52,141 nucleotides of DNA from a virus, in IMG/VR virus record IMGVR_UViG_3300050011_000039, positions 1 to 52,141 of that record, one strand, 5' to 3'. This document shows positions 37,870-52,141 of this stretch, one piece after another (the stretch's first letter is position 1; every line of letters begins with the position of its first letter). A program made the translations under genes and the position numbers. The notes beneath the pieces were generated by a model. That model did no database searches. It was not told the DNA's origin and was given only the letters and a program-made list of their open reading frames with translations.

Positions 37870-38499
37870 ATGAATAAAAATCTTCGATCATTGCCTAAAA
37901 TGAAAAAAGGTAAAACGAAAGATAAAAAGAAAGTATGTTCAATAAAAGATTGTGGGCGACCAGCCATATGCCGATGGATGTGCGAGAAACATTATTCAAG
38001 AATGAAGAAACACGGGACACTGGATGTATCTCGACTTGTAATAGATGATGTTATGGAAAGCTTTTGGGCGCGAACCAATAAAAAGGGCAAAGACGATTGC
38101 TGGAACTGGACTGGTTCTACAAGGGGAAGCGATCCAAAAAGGCAGTATGCTAGACATTGGAATGGTTCTGCATCCGAAAATGGACACCGATTCTCATATA
38201 GAAAATTTGTTGGAGAAATCCCAAAAGGTTTATGTGTATGTCACCATTGCGACAATCCATTGTGCGTAAACCCGCATCATTTATTTATTGGTACGCATAA
38301 AGATAATATGGCTGATATGAAAAAAAAGGGTAGGGCTTATGATGGATATGGAGAAGATAGGCCAATATCAGTCCTGACAAACAAACAAGCTGATGAAATC
38401 AGAAAATCCAGTCTTACAAGGAAGCAATTAAGAGAAAAGTATCAAGTTTCAGACTCAACAATAGGCCGCGTTCTTCGCGGAGAAAGCTATGTTGATTAA
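37870..38499 (+). CDS. HNH endonuclease with N-terminal basic and C-terminal HTH-like parts
   Basis: A 209-aa protein. Residues 1-50 are basic with a Cys/His cluster ([18 protein letters not shown]). Residues 80-150 are HNH_3: [45 protein letters not shown]. The last 50 residues read [19 protein letters not shown], a DNA-binding helix-turn-helix of the NUMOD kind. It is a selfish homing-type nuclease with its own promoter, between exonuclease and helicase; its stop overlaps the helicase start. Confidence 0.9.
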
Positions 38500-40166
38500 T
38501 GTCATATACTTTAAGACCCTACCAAGAAGCCGCCACACAAGCGACGCTTGACTACCTGATGACGAAATCAGGCAATCCAGTAATCTCTGCTGCGCCTGGC
38601 TCCGGTAAATCTATCCTCATTGCAGAATTATGCCGCCGCGCCATAGAAATCCATCCAGCGACAAACATTATTATTGCCGTGAGCGCGAAGGAATTGGTCA
38701 GACAGAATTATGAGAAGCTAAAGGCAATCTGGCCGGAAGGAGACACAGGAATCTATTCGGCTGGATTAAACAAAAAGCAGATTCGCAAGGTAACTTTTGT
38801 TTCCATACAATCGGTCTTTCGCAAAGCGTTCAAGTTCCCATCAACAGCAATTCTTATCTGTGATGAGTGCCATCACATTAACAAGCGTCAGGTTGGTATC
38901 TGGCACAAGTTCATCGGAGACTTGCGAATCGCCAATCCGGAGCTTCGTGTAGTTGGCTATTCTGGAACCCCGTTTCGTTTGACGCAGGGATTGATTACGG
39001 AAGGCGAAGGAACGCTTTTTGACGAAGTGGTTTATGACATAGACATTATTAGCCTGATTGATGCTGGTTGGTTGTCGCCCCTATTCAGTCACAGAACTGT
39101 TACGAAGCTAGATGTTTCTAAAGTGGGGAAAAGGAACGGAGATTATATCGAAAGCCAACTACAGGCTGCTGTGAACATCGACAGCATAACACAGAATTGT
39201 GTGACCGAGATTGTTGCACAAGGAGAAGATAGAAAATGCTGGCTGGCCTTCTGCTCCGGCATAGAACACGCTTTTGCTGTGCGTGATGCGATAAGGGCGC
39301 GAGGGTATAGTTGCGAGACAGTAACGGGCGAAACACCGCGAATTGAGCGCGACAAAATAATTGAGGATTATAAGAACGGTTTAATTCGTTGCGTCACCAA
39401 TAATGCAGTTATGATTACTGGCGTTGATATTCCCCAAATCGACTTAATAGCTTTCCTAAGACCAACTCAAAGCCCCATTATATGGACGCAAGGTCTTGGT
39501 CGTGGCTTACGTCTTGCTGATGGCAAGAAGGACTGCAAGGTACTCGACTTCCCCGATAATGGCTCTTTTTTTGGGCCGCTAGATAAGATCAGGGTAAAAG
39601 CAAAAGAAAGCAGCGGGTTGGGCGAAGCCCCTGTTAAAATGTGCGGGAATTGCATGAGCGTAGTACCAGCAAGCGCGAGAGAGTGCAAAGAATGTGGATA
39701 TGTATTCCCCATTGATACATCACTAAAAATATCTGACAAAGCATCCGGTTCAATTCTACTCTCCAACCAACTCGACATTCGCACCCTAACCGTTCGTTCC
39801 GTTCACTATTCGCGTCATCGCAAAGAAGGACGCCCCGACACGTTCAAGGCTACATATATCGTAAACGAGGAAATAAAAACCTTTCCAGAATGGACTTCTC
39901 CGGAATCCGATAAGCGATCACGCTTTGAGGCATGGTGGCGCAAACGCTCTAATCAGTTGCCGCCAAAGGACGTAACGGGTTGTTTAGAGTTGCAGAAAAC
40001 ATTGCGGAACCCAACGACGATAACGGTTAGGGCGAATGGGAAGTATCACGACATTTTAGGTTACACGTTTGAAGAAACTCCAAAATGTCACGAAGCGTTC
40101 GACAAACTTTTCCAAGGTGAGAAGCCGTGGTTAAATACCCCCCAAATTCCTTCTGTGCAGGACTAG
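38499..40166 (+). CDS. Superfamily-2 DEAD/DEAH-type helicase
   Basis: A 555-aa helicase: LRPYQ near the N-terminus, Walker A APGSGKS (32-38), DECH box (122-125), GYSGTP (motif III area), and motif VI QGLGRGLRL. Residues about 383-407 hold CGNC and CKEC pairs, a zinc ribbon. The C-terminal 140 residues are specific to phage members. It probably remodels DNA in replication or recombination. Its last 140 bases are antisense to the VRR-NUC gene, and its start follows the HNH gene by one-base overlap. Confidence 0.9.
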   Translation: MSYTLRPYQEAATQATLDYLMTKSGNPVISAAPGSGKSILIAELCRRAIEIHPATNIIIAVSAKELVRQNYEKLKAIWPEGDTGIYSAGLNKKQIRKVTFVSIQSVFRKAFKFPSTAILICDECHHINKRQVGIWHKFIGDLRIANPELRVVGYSGTPFRLTQGLITEGEGTLFDEVVYDIDIISLIDAGWLSPLFSHRTVTKLDVSKVGKRNGDYIESQLQAAVNIDSITQNCVTEIVAQGEDRKCWLAFCSGIEHAFAVRDAIRARGYSCETVTGETPRIERDKIIEDYKNGLIRCVTNNAVMITGVDIPQIDLIAFLRPTQSPIIWTQGLGRGLRLADGKKDCKVLDFPDNGSFFGPLDKIRVKAKESSGLGEAPVKMCGNCMSVVPASARECKECGYVFPIDTSLKISDKASGSILLSNQLDIRTLTVRSVHYSRHRKEGRPDTFKATYIVNEEIKTFPEWTSPESDKRSRFEAWWRKRSNQLPPKDVTGCLELQKTLRNPTTITVRANGKYHDILGYTFEETPKCHEAFDKLFQGEKPWLNTPQIPSVQD

Positions 40167-40473
40167 GGGAGCTACCAGCCTTCAACTCAATAAATGCCAC
40201 CCCACGATTGCGCCACAAGAGCATAATGTCATATACGCCCGACCGGACGCCCATAACCTTCAAATCAGCCCCTCCGCGTCTGCCAACCCTTGCAGAACCG
40301 CCAGGAATTGCGAGGCACTCAATTAACTCTACGGGATCAACAAGGCAATAGATGAATCTGAGAGCCTCGCATTGGAATGGCGTTTCATCATCCCAACGCG
40401 CATCCAACTCCTCATCCGTGTATTTCTTTATTACTTTGAGGGGCTCACGGCGGAAATGCGAAACCTTTTTCAC
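40027..40473 (-). CDS. VRR-NUC family nuclease
   Basis: A 148-aa protein with the compact VRR-NUC (PD-(D/E)XK) core at about 78-113: GVYDIMLLWRNRGVAFIELK holds the Asp and the ELK catalytic pair, then SPAQKEFGGYL. A helical end follows (HLGKVCRTLRDILEFLQ). Such phage nucleases are predicted to cut branched DNA. The GTG start overlaps the stop of the Arc-like gene. The 3' end overlaps the helicase coding sequence by 140 bp on the other strand. Confidence 0.8.
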   Translation of the reverse strand: MKKVSHFRREPLKVIKKYTDEELDARWDDETPFQCEALRFIYCLVDPVELIECLAIPGGSARVGRRGGADLKVMGVRSGVYDIMLLWRNRGVAFIELKAGSSPSPAQKEFGGYLTTASHLGKVCRTLRDILEFLQTCNLKCRDTSHSP

Positions 40474-40610
40474 TTTACTAACTTATTCAACATGATGCGA
40501 ATTTGCGACGCGAGTGTACGCCCGTTTTTCTCCGCAAGCGCCTCGATGAAATCATGCGTTTGTTTCGGTATCGCAATGTATAGCGACATGTGATTCTTCA
40601 AGCGTTTCAT
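40470..40610 (-). CDS. Arc-like ribbon-helix-helix repressor
   Basis: A 46-aa protein: MSLYIAIPKQTHDFIEALAE forms the strand and first helix, then KNGRTLASQIRIMLNKLVK the second, with the usual N-G/R turn. Arc-type proteins bind operators as dimers of dimers. The ATG at 40610 has GGAG six bases before; a longer frame is rejected. It is divergent from the GcrA-like gene, and the 66 bp between them contain a TATCA/TGATA inverted repeat. Confidence 0.8.
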   Translation of the reverse strand: MKRLKNHMSLYIAIPKQTHDFIEALAEKNGRTLASQIRIMLNKLVK

Positions 40611-40620
40611 TTTTTTCTCC

Positions 40621-40656
40621 CTTGCATTATCTTGTATCACATGTATGATAATTGTC
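40621..40656. promoter_or_regulatory. Divergent promoter with inverted repeat between Arc-like and GcrA-like genes
   Basis: Plus strand: TTGCAT (40621-40626), 16 bp, TATGAT (40643-40648). Minus strand: a TTGACA lies at the other end of the gap. TATCA, 6 bp, TGATA is an inverted repeat covering the plus -10, so an autoregulating repressor could control both directions. Confidence 0.5.
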
Positions 40657-40676
40657 AACCTAAGGAATGAATCAGT

Positions 40677-41180
40677 ATGCCACCTACCTCAAAATATCTC
40701 CACCTTCTACCCCGCATCCGAACCTTGGCAAAAACCATGACAGCCCAACAGCTTGCATTTGAATTTGGCACGACCAAAAACGCGATGATCGGCCTATGCC
40801 GACGCGAGAGCATACCGTTGACGGCGTTTGCCAATAGGGTGCATCCGCAGGGCGTGGCGGCTGTGAGGCATCGGCGCAAGAAGGCGCTGGCGAAGGTGGT
40901 GTTGCCAGTTAAGCCCAAGCCGATTGCCCTTCAACGTGGCATCATCCCCAATACGGATTCAAAACCTGTCCTCGAATCCAAAGTAAAGACCTCCTGCAAG
41001 CCAATAGCGTGGCCGCCAGCGCACGGAAAATGTGGCTACATTATCGGCGAAGCGCGAGAATTAACGTGCTGTGGGGATGATACGGGAGGGCGGTATTATT
41101 GTCCGGCTCACCATGCGGCTTGCTATGTGCCGACCGTTAGGAAGCCTACGGCGATGTACGATTGCTCTAGCAAGCAATAA
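40677..41180 (+). CDS. GcrA-like cell-cycle regulator
   Basis: A 167-aa protein. Residues 10-50 are an HTH (RTLAKTMTAQQLAFEFGTTK, then NAMIGLCRRESIPLT), as in the DNA-binding part of GcrA. A variable linker follows, then residues 108-152 match the C-terminal GcrA signature: IAWPPAHGKCGYIIGEARE, a Cys-Cys pair, GRYYCPAHHAACYVP. In Caulobacter GcrA works with sigma70 RNA polymerase and methylated GANTC sites. A phage copy could redirect host cell-cycle transcription or drive phage promoters. The sequence cannot say which. Confidence 0.8.
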   Translation: MPPTSKYLHLLPRIRTLAKTMTAQQLAFEFGTTKNAMIGLCRRESIPLTAFANRVHPQGVAAVRHRRKKALAKVVLPVKPKPIALQRGIIPNTDSKPVLESKVKTSCKPIAWPPAHGKCGYIIGEARELTCCGDDTGGRYYCPAHHAACYVPTVRKPTAMYDCSSKQ

Positions 41181-41249: not shown

Positions 41250-41387
41250 ATGGAAACGAAAATCACCGCTGTAAGGATTCCCCAACCGCTTCTGACTCGG
41301 CTTATTGCCGACGCAGAAAAGCACAACAGGACACTTTCCGGTGAAATAATCGACCGCCTAACCCAATCCTTCAGGAGAGCAAAATGA
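41250..41387 (+). CDS. Second ribbon-helix-helix protein
   Basis: A 45-aa protein: METKITAVRIPQPLLTRLIA, then DAEKHNRTLSGEIIDRLTQ, the strand-helix-helix arrangement of Arc/CopG regulators. The start at 41250 is preferred; a longer frame from 41190 adds 20 residues without a ribosome site. It overlaps the next gene by 4 bp (ATGA). Confidence 0.75.
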   Translation: METKITAVRIPQPLLTRLIADAEKHNRTLSGEIIDRLTQSFRRAK

Positions 41388-43268: not shown

Positions 43269-43404
43269 TTCTTTTTTCCTTTATGTAAGCAAGAATGGCT
43301 CTTTCCATTTTGGAAGATGTATCTGTGTGCAGATTTCTGTCTCTGCGCTTTATGGCGTTTTCTAGCCATGCGATCATTTCTTGCGGCGTAATTTTAGTCA
43401 TCAT
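43261..43404 (-). CDS. Very small hypothetical protein
   Basis: A 47-aa open frame (MMTKITPQEMIAWLENAIKR, then RDRNLHTDTSSKMERAILAY). It starts by overlap with the adenine methyltransferase stop and is helical. Part of the minus accessory operon. Confidence 0.45.
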   Translation of the reverse strand: MMTKITPQEMIAWLENAIKRRDRNLHTDTSSKMERAILAYIKEKRND

Positions 43405-43817
43405 GGCTTTGCTCTAAAGATCACTATTGCAGAAGGAAATTTTGCTCCATCCCCTGCACCCTGAAATCGTAGCCGTCCTTTCACGAACCGGATCTCGTCT
43501 GCCATCATTACCCATTGATGCCACCACTTGTTGTCTGTCCGAGAGGGAACAAGGCACACCACAGTCGCATGGCTTTCGTATGCTTTCTTGAGCCAAGTAC
43601 CTATGGCGGCTCCATAAGGAGGATTCATCCAACATGTTTCGCCCGTCCAATCCTGTTTTAATCCGTCTATTTCTTTATCGTAATAGCGCGCACATTTTGC
43701 CAATTCTTTGTTGGCGCAAACATCCACCGTGAACTCAAATTCTTTATTGAGTTCATCGAATAATCGTTGTGGCGTTCCCCATTCAAACTTTCCGGTTGTG
43801 TTGTCTGTGAAGCTCAT
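43401..43817 (-). CDS. Phage N-6-adenine DNA methyltransferase (Dam-like)
   Basis: A 138-aa protein of the phage Dam type: FEWGTPQRLFDELN, FTVDVCAN, CARYYDKEIDGLKQDW and the catalytic NPPY (65-68) in WMNPPYG. Compact but complete for this family. It would methylate adenine in phage DNA and may protect it from host restriction or affect methylation-dependent host promoters. The recognition sequence is not evident. Confidence 0.9.
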   Translation of the reverse strand: MSFTDNTTGKFEWGTPQRLFDELNKEFEFTVDVCANKELAKCARYYDKEIDGLKQDWTGETCWMNPPYGAAIGTWLKKAYESHATVVCLVPSRTDNKWWHQWVMMADEIRFVKGRLRFQGAGDGAKFPSAIVIFRAKP

Positions 43818-43842: not shown

Positions 43843-44076
43843 TCATGGATAACTCCTGCGGTTCCATCTTTTAGTTAAATCAGCGTCCAACTTATCCATC
43901 GTTTCCAAGCGTGTGTGAGCATCATCAATCCAGCATTGACTGCGATGAAGAAATACATTGCACCGGCATTCTAGCGTCCGTCCTATAATTGTTCCTGCAT
44001 CATATCGGTCGCTTATAGGGTAAGGGTTTTCACCGCAGAACGGGCATGGCAAAAGCGTGGTTTTAGATTCTTGCAC
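43843..44076 (-). CDS. Lar-like restriction-alleviation protein
   Basis: A 77-aa protein with LLPCPFCGENPYP near the start, a second Cys pair (ECRC), a further Cys (SQCW) and the terminal KRWNRR: the Lar-type zinc-ribbon layout. Rac prophage Lar alleviates type I restriction; for this homologue it is inference. I chose the GTG at 44076, which has GGGAGGA just upstream. Two ATGs farther out overlap the previous gene. Confidence 0.65.
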   Translation of the reverse strand: MQESKTTLLPCPFCGENPYPISDRYDAGTIIGRTLECRCNVFLHRSQCWIDDAHTRLETMDKLDADLTKRWNRRSYP

Positions 44077-44242
44077 GAATGTCCTCCCTCTCATGCTCTC
44101 TTGCCATGTCATAAACGCGCTGGGCAAAATCCATGACGGCGCTTACTTTGCTGCCATGGCTCATGTCGCCTTCTAGGTAATTCACAAGTCCTTCGGCGGC
44201 GGCATATTTCTGCTCGTAGGTCGTCGTTTGTGGATTAGACAT
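44063..44242 (-). CDS. Small hypothetical protein
   Basis: A 59-aa protein (MSNPQTTTYEQKYAAAEGLV, then NYLEGDMSHGSKVSAVMDFA) with GGAAGGGG before the ATG at 44242, which favours this start. Helical, no known motif. Overlaps both neighbours. Confidence 0.5.
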   Translation of the reverse strand: MSNPQTTTYEQKYAAAEGLVNYLEGDMSHGSKVSAVMDFAQRVYDMAREHEREDIRARI

Positions 44243-44420: not shown

Positions 44421-44677
44421 TATTTCTCCCCCACAAGGATTGGCCTGTTCGCATTTTTCTTATTCTTGGGGAATGGAGGCTCATCTGGAAGGTGTTGCCA
44501 GTGGGTCAAGCCATCATCATCGTATGAATTTACATCATCTGAAATAACCCCTGATTCTCCCATCATGGCGATAACCATTCGACCCCAACCCTCGCCAAAC
44601 AGAACCCAAATGTTTTTTGGGCAAGACGCTATTGGCCTCCATTTGCTTTTCGTCGTTTGTGTTTTCTGATCGCTCAT
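44420..44677 (-). CDS. DUF551-like protein
   Basis: An 85-aa protein with KWRPIASCPKNIWVLFGEGW at the start and THWQHLPDEPPFPKN near the end, the framing motifs of the DUF551 group of small phage proteins. Function unknown. Coupled to the cytosine methyltransferase stop by overlap. Confidence 0.75.
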   Translation of the reverse strand: MSDQKTQTTKSKWRPIASCPKNIWVLFGEGWGRMVIAMMGESGVISDDVNSYDDDGLTHWQHLPDEPPFPKNKKNANRPILVGEK

Positions 44678-45417
44678 GGTCTTACCTCCATAAAGGCAGT
44701 TATAAATTCTGCGGCTACTTGCGGCACAATCGCGTTCCCATAGGCTCGCACTGATCCCATTGGGAAGGAAACCCCATAAGCCAACGGAGATGTTCCCTGC
44801 TCAATACGCCGCGCTCTTTTATCGGGACTGTCGAATTTTTGGAATTGCTCCCAGCTTCCCCCTGTAGATTCAGCTTGTCGCTGCACTTTCTCCCACTCGA
44901 TGACATGTGAGCCGATGGCGTCTGCCACCCAGAAAATTCTTTGTCGCTTGTGAGGCGCACCGACGCTCGCAGCGCACAGATCGGCTCCCCCGCTTTCATA
45001 TCCCAATGCTTCCATGTTGTTTCGTACTCCCGCGAACCAGTCTCTCCCAGCCTTGCTCTCAACCTGTTCTCCAAAGACGATTGGAGGCTTGCATTGCGCG
45101 ATGAGGCAATAGAAATCCGGCCACAGGTGCCGTTCGTCGTTTTCGCCTTTGCCGAGGCCGCCTGCGCTGAAAGGTTGGCAGGGGCATGATCCTGTCCACA
45201 CTCGCCTGTCGTCATCCCATCCAGCGAGACGCAGAGCGTAAGACCATCCACCGATCCCTGCGAAGAAGTGGCATTGGGTATATCCTTTGAGGTCATCGGC
45301 TTTTACATCCTTTATACTGCGTTCATCTACATCGCCGGGGGCGATCAATCCGGCTTTGATTAGGTTGCGAAGCCATTGCGCGGGGTAAGCTTCCCATTCG
45401 TTGTAATATGCGCTCAT
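44674..45417 (-). CDS. DNA cytosine-5 methyltransferase
   Basis: A 247-aa protein. After a 45-residue leader come motif I (FFAGIGGWS, 51-59), motif IV with the catalytic Cys80 (PCQPFS), motif VI as GEQV instead of the usual ENV, motif VIII (APHKRQRIFWV) and motif X (AYGNAIVPQVAAEFI). The region for target recognition is short. It probably modifies phage DNA against restriction. A 193-aa frame in the same strand is a shadow. Confidence 0.9.
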   Translation of the reverse strand: MSAYYNEWEAYPAQWLRNLIKAGLIAPGDVDERSIKDVKADDLKGYTQCHFFAGIGGWSYALRLAGWDDDRRVWTGSCPCQPFSAGGLGKGENDERHLWPDFYCLIAQCKPPIVFGEQVESKAGRDWFAGVRNNMEALGYESGGADLCAASVGAPHKRQRIFWVADAIGSHVIEWEKVQRQAESTGGSWEQFQKFDSPDKRARRIEQGTSPLAYGVSFPMGSVRAYGNAIVPQVAAEFITAFMEVRP

Positions 45418-46776: not shown

Positions 46777-47070
46777 ATGACCGATGAACAAACCCAAGCG
46801 ACCCTACAAGACACCCCCGATCCCGCGCTGATAAACGAGCAGGTGCGCGCGCAGGCAATGGCGAACATGGCAGGGCAGACTCTCGGGCAGATCACGCAGG
46901 CCGCGATGCAGTTGCTCACGACGGCGACCTGTAATAACCCGCGCCTGTGCCTGGCTGTGGCGAACGAATTGTCTCTGATATACGCGGAGGCGTTGCGGCG
47001 CGGTCTGATGGTTAATCAGGCGACCGAGAAGGCCGACGAGGCGCCAGCACCGGAGGCCGCAAATGGCTGA
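46777..47070 (+). CDS. Hypothetical Ala/Gln-rich protein upstream of the GapR homologue
   Basis: A 97-aa helical protein (INEQVRAQAMANMAGQTLGQ, LAVANELSLIYAEALRRGLM). AAGGAG before the ATG at 46777 supports this start over one 28 codons earlier. It overlaps the GapR-like start by 8 bp, so the two are probably co-translated. Confidence 0.6.
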   Translation: MTDEQTQATLQDTPDPALINEQVRAQAMANMAGQTLGQITQAAMQLLTTATCNNPRLCLAVANELSLIYAEALRRGLMVNQATEKADEAPAPEAANG

Positions 47071-47311
47071 GGTCGGGGGCGTATCTGGTGAACGGCTGAT
47101 GTCGTTTATCAAAAGGATTGAAAAACTGAATGAAGATAAGGACGCCGTTACGTCTGATTTGACCGAGGTGTACGCGGAAAGCAAGTCGGTAGGATTCGAC
47201 GTTAAAATCCTGCGCCAGATCGTGAAGCTGCGTAAACAAGAGGTTGAGAAGCGGCGCGAGGAGTCCGAATTATTAGAACTCTACGCGAGTGCAATCGGCC
47301 TCGAAACCTAA
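47063..47311 (+). CDS. GapR-like (DUF2312) nucleoid protein
   Basis: An 82-aa protein matching GapR over its whole length: SGERLMSFIKRIEKLNEDKD, LTEVYAESKSVGFDVKILRQ, IVKLRKQEVEKRREESELLE, then LYASAIGL. In Caulobacter GapR binds AT-rich, overtwisted DNA and supports replication and segregation. A phage copy could coat phage DNA, aid replication or displace the host protein. The family is largely alphaproteobacterial and is the clearest host clue here. Confidence 0.85.
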   Translation: MAEVGGVSGERLMSFIKRIEKLNEDKDAVTSDLTEVYAESKSVGFDVKILRQIVKLRKQEVEKRREESELLELYASAIGLET

Positions 47312-50326: not shown

Positions 50327-52141
50327 TTAAAGCCCTGTGCAAGTACATGCGCCCGTTGCTCCGACAACTGTTGTGCAATATCCAGCCGCCCCGCCCGTTG
50401 TCCAGCAAGCAGCCTGACCTGCATGAGCAGAGGCATTTTGAAGTGTAAATTCTCCGGGCGTGGCTGATGAAGTCCCAACAGCAACCGACCCCTGAACAAT
50501 CATCCCATTCGTCGGAGCTGCCGTCACACCAGCGTAGCTTGTGCCGATTGCGACATTGCCGTACACATCGAGTTCGGATGCTGGTGATGTCGTCCCAATC
50601 CCGACGTTGCCGCTATTCGAAATTCGCATATACTCGGACCAGGTAGCTGAATTATTCCTCTCTAGGAATAGCAGGCTGCCATTGTCAGAACCGCTGGAGA
50701 AGTTAGGCGAAGCCAGTTTCCAGCCGTACCCGCCGCCTGCAGGCGAGAAGTTGAATTCAATGCCCCCAGATTGCGCGGTTGCGGTACGTCCAAGAACGAT
50801 TTGTGCATCGTCAATTGTCGGCCTGCCTGTAGAGAGATTACCGGCCGCGAAAGCCGCGCCGGATATATAAAGGCGGCTCGAGGTGCTGGCGGCTCCGACT
50901 TGAAGAGGCGCTTCCGGCGAGGTTGTCCCGATCCCGACACTGCCTGCTGTCGTGAGTGTCATCAACGCGCCGTAAGCGCCGCCATTGATCGAGCTGCTCC
51001 AGGTAAGGTTCCCCGAAGGGTTGGCTGCGCCCTGTACGGGTTGCAGTTCCTCGATCATATCGACTGCTTGGCTGGCGGACGTGTTTGTCTCCCAGCCGCG
51101 TCCGTCAAAGTGGAGGCGCGGTGACCATTGTTGGGCGCCTAAAGCCGCCGCCGTCGTGTTGGTTAGCACGAGACCGTTGGTGCTGGTCACGCCGATGGAT
51201 TGGGTGTCGGTAACCGCGCCGCTTGCAGCCAGACTCGTTCCTGTCGCCGCCCCAATGTTTGGCGTTACTAGCGTTGGCGACGTATCCACAACAAATTTCG
51301 TCCCTGTGCCGGTCTGCGACGCGATAGATGTTGCATTGCCAGATGAGGTTATGACGCCTGTCAAATTAGCATTCGTCGTCACGGTTGAGGCGGCAATGGC
51401 TGTGTTGCATCCGAAGCCTGTGCCGCTAGTCCATTTAAGGGCGCTTGCAGAGGTTGAGCACGAAGGCAATGCCAAATCTGAGGGTGTCGTAGCGGTCAAT
51501 GCGCCAAGAACCGTGTTTGCCGTTTGTGTCGCAAGTGTTGCCGTCAGGGTGCCGGATGTTGTGACTGCACTTGATGGGGTTGAAGATAATACTGTGCCGT
51601 CGCCGGTGAAAGTTACGGAGGTGACAGTGCCGGAGCCGGTACTGGCAGCAACCCACGAGGTATTACCAGAACCATCAGTCTGAAGAACATAAGTATTAGT
51701 TCCATTAGTTGCTGGCAGTGTAAAATTAGTTCCCGTTCCTGCTGCTGCTGCGGCTTTCAATGTAACACTGCCGCTAGTAGAACCATTAAAAGTTATCTGT
51801 CCGTTGGTTCCTGAATTAGCCCCCGTTGACATAACGCCGCTTGCAGCCAGACTCGTTCCTGTCGCCGCCCCAATGTTTGGCGTTACTAGCGTTGGCGACG
51901 TATCCACAACAAATTTCGTCCCTGTGCCGGTCTGCGACGCGATAGATGTTGCATTGCCAGATGAGGTTATGACGCCTGTCAAATTAGCATTCGTCGTCAC
52001 GGTTGAGGCGGCAATGGCTGTGTTGCATCCGAAGCCTGTGCCGCTAGTCCATTTAAGGGCGCTTGCAGAGGTTGAGCACGAAGGCAATGCCAAATCTGAG
52101 GGTGTCGTAGCGGTCAATGCGCCAAGAACCGTGTTTGCCGT
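50327..52141 (-). CDS. Signal-peptide-bearing repetitive fibre-like protein, 3' part (cut by the window edge)
   Basis: This is the C-terminal part of the gene that begins at 1180. Reading in from the right edge it repeats the 206-residue unit, then leaves it after LAASG and runs into a region with GSVGIGTTSPEAPLQVG and GNVGIGTTSPASELDVYG, the repeated GIGTTSP turns found in phage fibres and chaperone-capped tails. A Cys-rich end follows (CWTTGGAAGYCTTVVGATGA, then CTCTGL). The open frame has no true start here; the first in-frame ATG at 52117 lies inside the repeat. The stop at 50327 is one base before the holin-like start. Confidence 0.8.
   Translation of the reverse strand, partial: TANTVLGALTATTPSDLALPSCSTSASALKWTSGTGFGCNTAIAASTVTTNANLTGVITSSGNATSIASQTGTGTKFVVDTSPTLVTPNIGAATGTSLAASGVMSTGANSGTNGQITFNGSTSGSVTLKAAAAAGTGTNFTLPATNGTNTYVLQTDGSGNTSWVAASTGSGTVTSVTFTGDGTVLSSTPSSAVTTSGTLTATLATQTANTVLGALTATTPSDLALPSCSTSASALKWTSGTGFGCNTAIAASTVTTNANLTGVITSSGNATSIASQTGTGTKFVVDTSPTLVTPNIGAATGTSLAASGAVTDTQSIGVTSTNGLVLTNTTAAALGAQQWSPRLHFDGRGWETNTSASQAVDMIEELQPVQGAANPSGNLTWSSSINGGAYGALMTLTTAGSVGIGTTSPEAPLQVGAASTSSRLYISGAAFAAGNLSTGRPTIDDAQIVLGRTATAQSGGIEFNFSPAGGGYGWKLASPNFSSGSDNGSLLFLERNNSATWSEYMRISNSGNVGIGTTSPASELDVYGNVAIGTSYAGVTAAPTNGMIVQGSVAVGTSSATPGEFTLQNASAHAGQAACWTTGGAAGYCTTVVGATGACTCTGL
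51217..52141. repeat. Right copy of 925-bp terminal direct repeat
   Basis: It equals bases 1-925 throughout by eye. One and a half copies of the 618-bp unit (51217-51834 and 51835-52141) make it up. The left border is sharp: 51216 is g, whereas the base before the second unit is a. Confidence 0.95.

Follow-up and report, generated by a model that had tools for sequence, protein, structure and literature searches.

The open reading frame at positions 40,677 to 41,180 of the viral record IMGVR_UViG_3300050011_000039 (the window, 52,141 nucleotides in full) encodes a divergent member of the GcrA family, as its sequence, its arrangement of domains, and its fold all indicate. The protein probably acts as a small, phage-encoded, sigma70-directed co-activator that steers the host RNA polymerase, a functional reading to which a probability of about 0.65 can be assigned. 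The features discussed below are collected in Table 1.

Table 1. Features of the GcrA-like gene, its product, and its surroundings (window coordinates)
Feature	Position	Strand	Basis
SF2 helicase, replication module	38499..40166	+	phrog_16, E 2.2e-83
Endonuclease-like gene (VRR-NUC-like by eye)	40027..40473	-	phrog_93 endonuclease, E 1e-7; phrog_824, E 6e-12
46-aa ribbon-helix-helix (RHH)-like ORF, divergent from the GcrA gene	40470..40610	-	Arc-like by eye; no significant family match
Palindrome TATCA-CATGTA-TGATA between the RHH-like and GcrA genes; possible operator	40635..40650	.	Sequence
GcrA-family protein, 167 aa	40677..41180	+	Pfam GcrA, family HMM, jackhmmer, fold
N-terminal three-helix HTH, residues 5-46; counterpart of the GcrA DNA-binding domain	40689..40814	+	pLDDT ~93; PDB matches; N-half 14 bits
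C-terminal Cys/His domain, residues 110-152; counterpart of the GcrA sigma-interacting domain	41004..41132	+	Kept residues; PDB matches; C-half 24.6 bits
Arc-like DNA-binding protein, directly downstream of the GcrA gene	41250..41387	+	PF03869, E 5e-5
Dam-type N6-adenine methyltransferase, not of the CcrM class	43401..43817	-	PF05869, E 1.6e-28
GapR nucleoid protein	47063..47311	+	PF10073, E 6.5e-27

An in-frame stop codon (TGA, 40668-40670) lies just 5′ of the open reading frame, making an earlier start impossible, and AAGGA at 40662-40666, before the ATG, is a plausible ribosome-binding site. Promoter and terminator scans around the gene stayed at chance level. The preliminary description had recognized an N-terminal helix-turn-helix (HTH) and a C-terminal Cys/His signature in the product, and both are indeed present: the motif TKNAMIGLCRR occupies residues 33-43 and the signature CGYIIGE...CCG...YYCPAHHAACYVP residues 119-151.

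The Pfam GcrA profile (PF07750) aligns with the protein from end to end (residues 19-155 against profile positions 17-150), with a score of 22.7 bits and an E-value of 1.4e-4. This score does not reach the curated cut-off of 26.9 bits, which is a curation threshold and not a biological feature, and a six-frame family search of the whole record consequently reports no GcrA; NCBIfam gave no match to the protein. With the Pfam score sub-threshold and the six-frame search empty, the family assignment rests on a larger profile, an iterative search, and structure. GcrA homologues were gathered from viral contigs with Caulobacter GcrA as the query, its sequence having been checked against PDB 7ye1, and 60 GcrA proteins, most of them from viruses, went into a family profile, with Caulobacter GcrA included and the window protein left out. 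The window protein matched this profile with an E-value of 1.4e-13 (47 bits), as the sole match among 960 open reading frames of the window, whereas the best of 5000 shuffled versions of it scored 11.8 bits. An iterative jackhmmer search started from the window protein likewise recovered the GcrA family. The profile check that the preliminary description had suggested thus came out below the Pfam cut-off but significant with the broader viral profile, and the GcrA-like identity that it had claimed is borne out. Of the two findings that it had named as speaking against this identity, neither is clearly seen, given a significant family match and a C-terminal framework that appears to be kept on alignment.

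The distance of the protein from its relatives is nonetheless considerable. Direct searches with the window protein, the helicase, or the terminase gave no close viral relatives; the search of phage records with the window protein returned nothing but a Vibrio phage HTH, and the sequence search of the PDB gave no match. Of 385 whole genomes belonging to the same class as a rhodobacteral genome (G049), only three match the protein at E ≤ 1e-4. The tree gives the protein no firm placement, its row having a long branch that pairs with another one (L110); no recent descent from a sampled host gcrA is visible. Forms with an HTH only were also seen: a Vibrio phage protein in L006 (1971-2294) has a GcrA-like HTH without a sigma-interacting domain, and another such form lies after a helicase in L130 (5832-6221).

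The two-domain architecture—HTH, linker, and Cys/His domain—is supported by the full-length alignment, by both halves, and by both solved folds. In an AlphaFold model computed from a 41-row alignment, the HTH is predicted with the confidence listed in Table 1 and the C-terminal domain with a pLDDT of ~80-85, and the linker is disordered. When the model was compared with 350,542 PDB chains using Foldseek, the top three matches were all GcrA, each with an E-value above 0.4 and thus not significant alone. In VIA-align, the GcrA DNA-binding domain took ranks 1 and 2 (5yiv_A, Z 5.7; 5yiu, Z 5.6), superposing with an rmsd of 1.7-2.0 Å over 42-44 residues. The chains of the sigma-interacting domain scored lower (5yix_B, Z 3.5 over 41 residues at 3.3 Å; 7ye2_G, Z 3.7), values no better than those of some unrelated rows. 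These modest Z values support the GcrA assignment without carrying it. The weak structural match of the sigma-interacting domain, the Pfam score under the cut-off, and the tail-less Vibrio phage protein in L006 with its similar HTH would all suit a simple DNA-binding HTH protein whose zinc-binding tail is unrelated and which does not act as a sigma partner. Such a protein is very improbable, however, as against the GcrA profile the C-terminal half on its own outscores the N-terminal one and the order and spacing of its C, C, YC, and H residues fit the GcrA family.

More detailed comparison of the positions conserved in at least 80% of the GcrA family showed that the window protein retains 11 of 21, the fewest among the 61 sequences compared. 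The comparison carries some bias, since resemblance to Caulobacter GcrA was how the other sequences had been collected. The losses are unevenly distributed between the domains. The C-terminal domain keeps five of its six conserved positions, including all four Cys/His residues and the Tyr: Caulobacter C118, C133, Y142, C143, and H146, invariant or nearly so in the 60 GcrA members, correspond to C119, C132, Y141, C142, and H145 of the window protein. The Cys/His positions presumably form a metal site. In the CxWPxG motif, W-P is replaced by Y-I, and the W is a Y or F in 14 of the 60 members. The HTH, on the other hand, retains only 5 of 14 conserved positions, the joint lowest value in the set together with a Rhizobium phage protein. 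W3 is absent, and the recognition helix reads KNAMIGLCRR where the family has RNAVIGKVHR, with N, A, I, G, and the last R the same and K39, V40, and H41 different (K39 to L, H41 to R).

Since drift has affected the recognition helix and spared the C-terminal framework, the protein probably reads DNA that differs from methylated GANTC, or reads it less specifically. The same imbalance could be expected of an inhibitor or decoy that keeps the sigma-binding domain, does not recognize promoters in a useful way, and lowers the activity of host GcrA or of host transcription. This alternative is unlikely: the prediction of the HTH fold remains confident, and G38, N34, and R42 are kept, so DNA binding has probably not been lost.

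GcrA is a sigma70 partner that binds domain 2 of the sigma factor together with methylated DNA (review PMC7403470), and the preliminary description had proposed that the phage protein and a phage-encoded adenine methyltransferase could together reprogram host transcription or mark phage promoters. A faithful mimic of this kind, binding m6A-methylated GANTC with sigma70, would be in keeping with membership of the GcrA family, with the adenine methylase 2.2 kb away, and with a GANTC site at 40669, 8 bp ahead of the start codon; in addition, a host CcrM could supply the methylation. The methyltransferase that had been described does exist, but it belongs to PF05869 and not to the PF01555 class expected for CcrM; no PF01555 enzyme was found in the record, although the Caulobacter control did match, and of 48 viral records with GcrA only 6 also have PF05869. 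The window holds 135 GANTC sites, and the count in phage promoters that had been suggested gave no enrichment: 13 of 31 regions upstream of a transcription unit contain a site, where the random mean is 9.9, and 22 sites lie between genes, with 19.7 expected. YGAKTCK, which has been reported as the extended activation motif in Caulobacter (PMC7987155), occurs between genes once against 2.2 expected, and GANTC and GATC are mildly under-represented, as many palindromes are. With K39 and H41 also changed, joint action with the phage methylase is not borne out and a faithful mimic is quite unlikely, while host CcrM could still methylate a few relevant GANTC sites.

A broader proposal is that of a methylation-independent GcrA, in which the sigma70-docking domain was kept and the recognition of m6A-GANTC gave way to a different specificity; what had been a cell-cycle regulator would then provide phage promoters with a general means of engaging the host RNA polymerase. 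This can be put forward only tentatively, as a possible but rather doubtful extension. If the conserved sigma domain is truly separate from the drifted DNA-binding domain, the protein would offer a naturally occurring way to find out which part of GcrA depends on methylated DNA.

Other sequence words are depleted more than GANTC in the window, namely GGNCC (28, against 67-162 expected) and CCNGG (61, against 140-161 expected), both strongly; this depletion may stem from host restriction or from the phage's own cytosine methylase (44674-45417). A gene for the restriction-alleviation protein Lar (PF14354, E 7.8e-7; 43843-44100, minus strand) lies beside the two methyltransferase genes, with which it likely forms an anti-restriction cluster.

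The co-activator reading can be formulated in steps. Within the RNA polymerase holoenzyme, the C-terminal Cys/His domain would dock on the housekeeping sigma70 of the host, at its domain 2, the N-terminal HTH would contact promoter DNA, and open-complex formation would thereby be favored in the replication phase at chosen promoters of the phage (or of the host). The gene lies in a setting of replication and small DNA-binding genes: an upstream replication module (primase, Sak4-like ATPase, SSB-like protein, Cas4-like exonuclease, HNH, and helicase) is followed by the divergent endonuclease-like and small RHH-like genes, by the GcrA gene, and by the Arc-like gene. The neighboring small Arc-like DNA-binding proteins may control the GcrA-like gene. 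The palindrome in front of it is the only exact copy in the window, but its one-mismatch count is at chance level, so it does not constitute functional evidence. A search for a single-subunit RNA polymerase (PF00940) gave no match in the phage, nor did any control match. The third gene after GcrA encodes a pentapeptide-repeat protein (PF00805; 41606-42250, plus strand) in which SDLSGSNLSGSNL-type repeats follow one another over a long stretch. The record carries an exact direct terminal repeat of 925 bases (1-925 = 51217-52141), located within a tail-fiber-like gene bearing 618-base internal repeats; either the record is complete, or it was closed by way of the terminal repeat.

Helicases 33-39% identical to that of the window adjoin GcrA in at least seven other viral contigs (L043, L063, L065, L067, L075, L079, and L081). 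Among the helicase relatives collected first, a GcrA-like open reading frame was nearby in 5 of 160 loci, one of which (L142) has a poor GcrA match without the C-terminal part; GcrA is thus an occasional passenger of the helicase module and not a fixed part of it.

An alphaproteobacterial host is likely, because the phage encodes GapR and GcrA was found in none of 143 gammaproteobacterial genomes. Phage homologues of GapR occur almost all in alphaproteobacterial phages. The best matches of the window helicase are mostly from Rhodobacterales and relatives of acetic-acid bacteria, and 9 of 11 genomes carrying the helicase also have GcrA, which is absent from the Magnetococcales genome and from the gammaproteobacterial genome; matches of the resolvase are scattered and uninformative on the host. 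GapR was found over the cut-off in 8 of 48 GcrA-bearing viral records versus 0 of 29 helicase-bearing records, a comparison confounded by host class and with two GcrA-containing records in the helicase control set. In L064 and in Caulobacter phage DMCA (L001), GapR and GcrA lie close together. That GcrA, in some cases accompanied by GapR, recurs in phages of Alphaproteobacteria suggests that such phages commonly target host transcription and nucleoid functions.

Phage-borne GcrA is already known, having been in the literature since 2012, and its homologues occur in at least 83 viral contigs and in 34 deposited phage records. GcrA was reported in that year to be encoded by phiCbK-like phages, with the idea that it alters the replicative state of the host (PMC3556154), and Agrobacterium phage Atu_ph08 also encodes it (PMC6630229). 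The window gives an unusually diverged form, extending phage-borne GcrA to a phage of short-tailed type and indicating that curated thresholds miss members as diverged as this one. Caulobacter crescentus GcrA (PDB 5yiu, 5yiv, 5yix, and 7ye1) shares with it the HTH, the disordered linker, and the C-terminal pattern of Cys, Cys, Tyr-Cys, and His, and the AlphaFold model matches both of its solved domains; the window protein is, however, phage-encoded, only 25% identical, and without W3, W15, K39, H41, W120, and P121. The GcrA proteins of phiCbK-like and other phages are, like the window protein, phage-borne and full-length, but that of phiCbK scores 89 bits and, as other phage GcrAs do, lies above the Pfam cut-off, and the window phage itself belongs to a different lineage from the phiCbK-like phages, being of short-tailed type, as judged from its proteins of the head, the tail, and the head-tail connector. 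The closest full-length relative is the GcrA of L066 (IMG/VR 3300034111_001091; phmmer E 1.6e-6), which has a similar SCC...YCPAH C-terminus and, as in the window, a nuclease-like gene directly upstream (by eye), in a record that also carries GapR; unlike the window protein, it keeps 21 of 21 conserved positions and scores 69 bits in Pfam.
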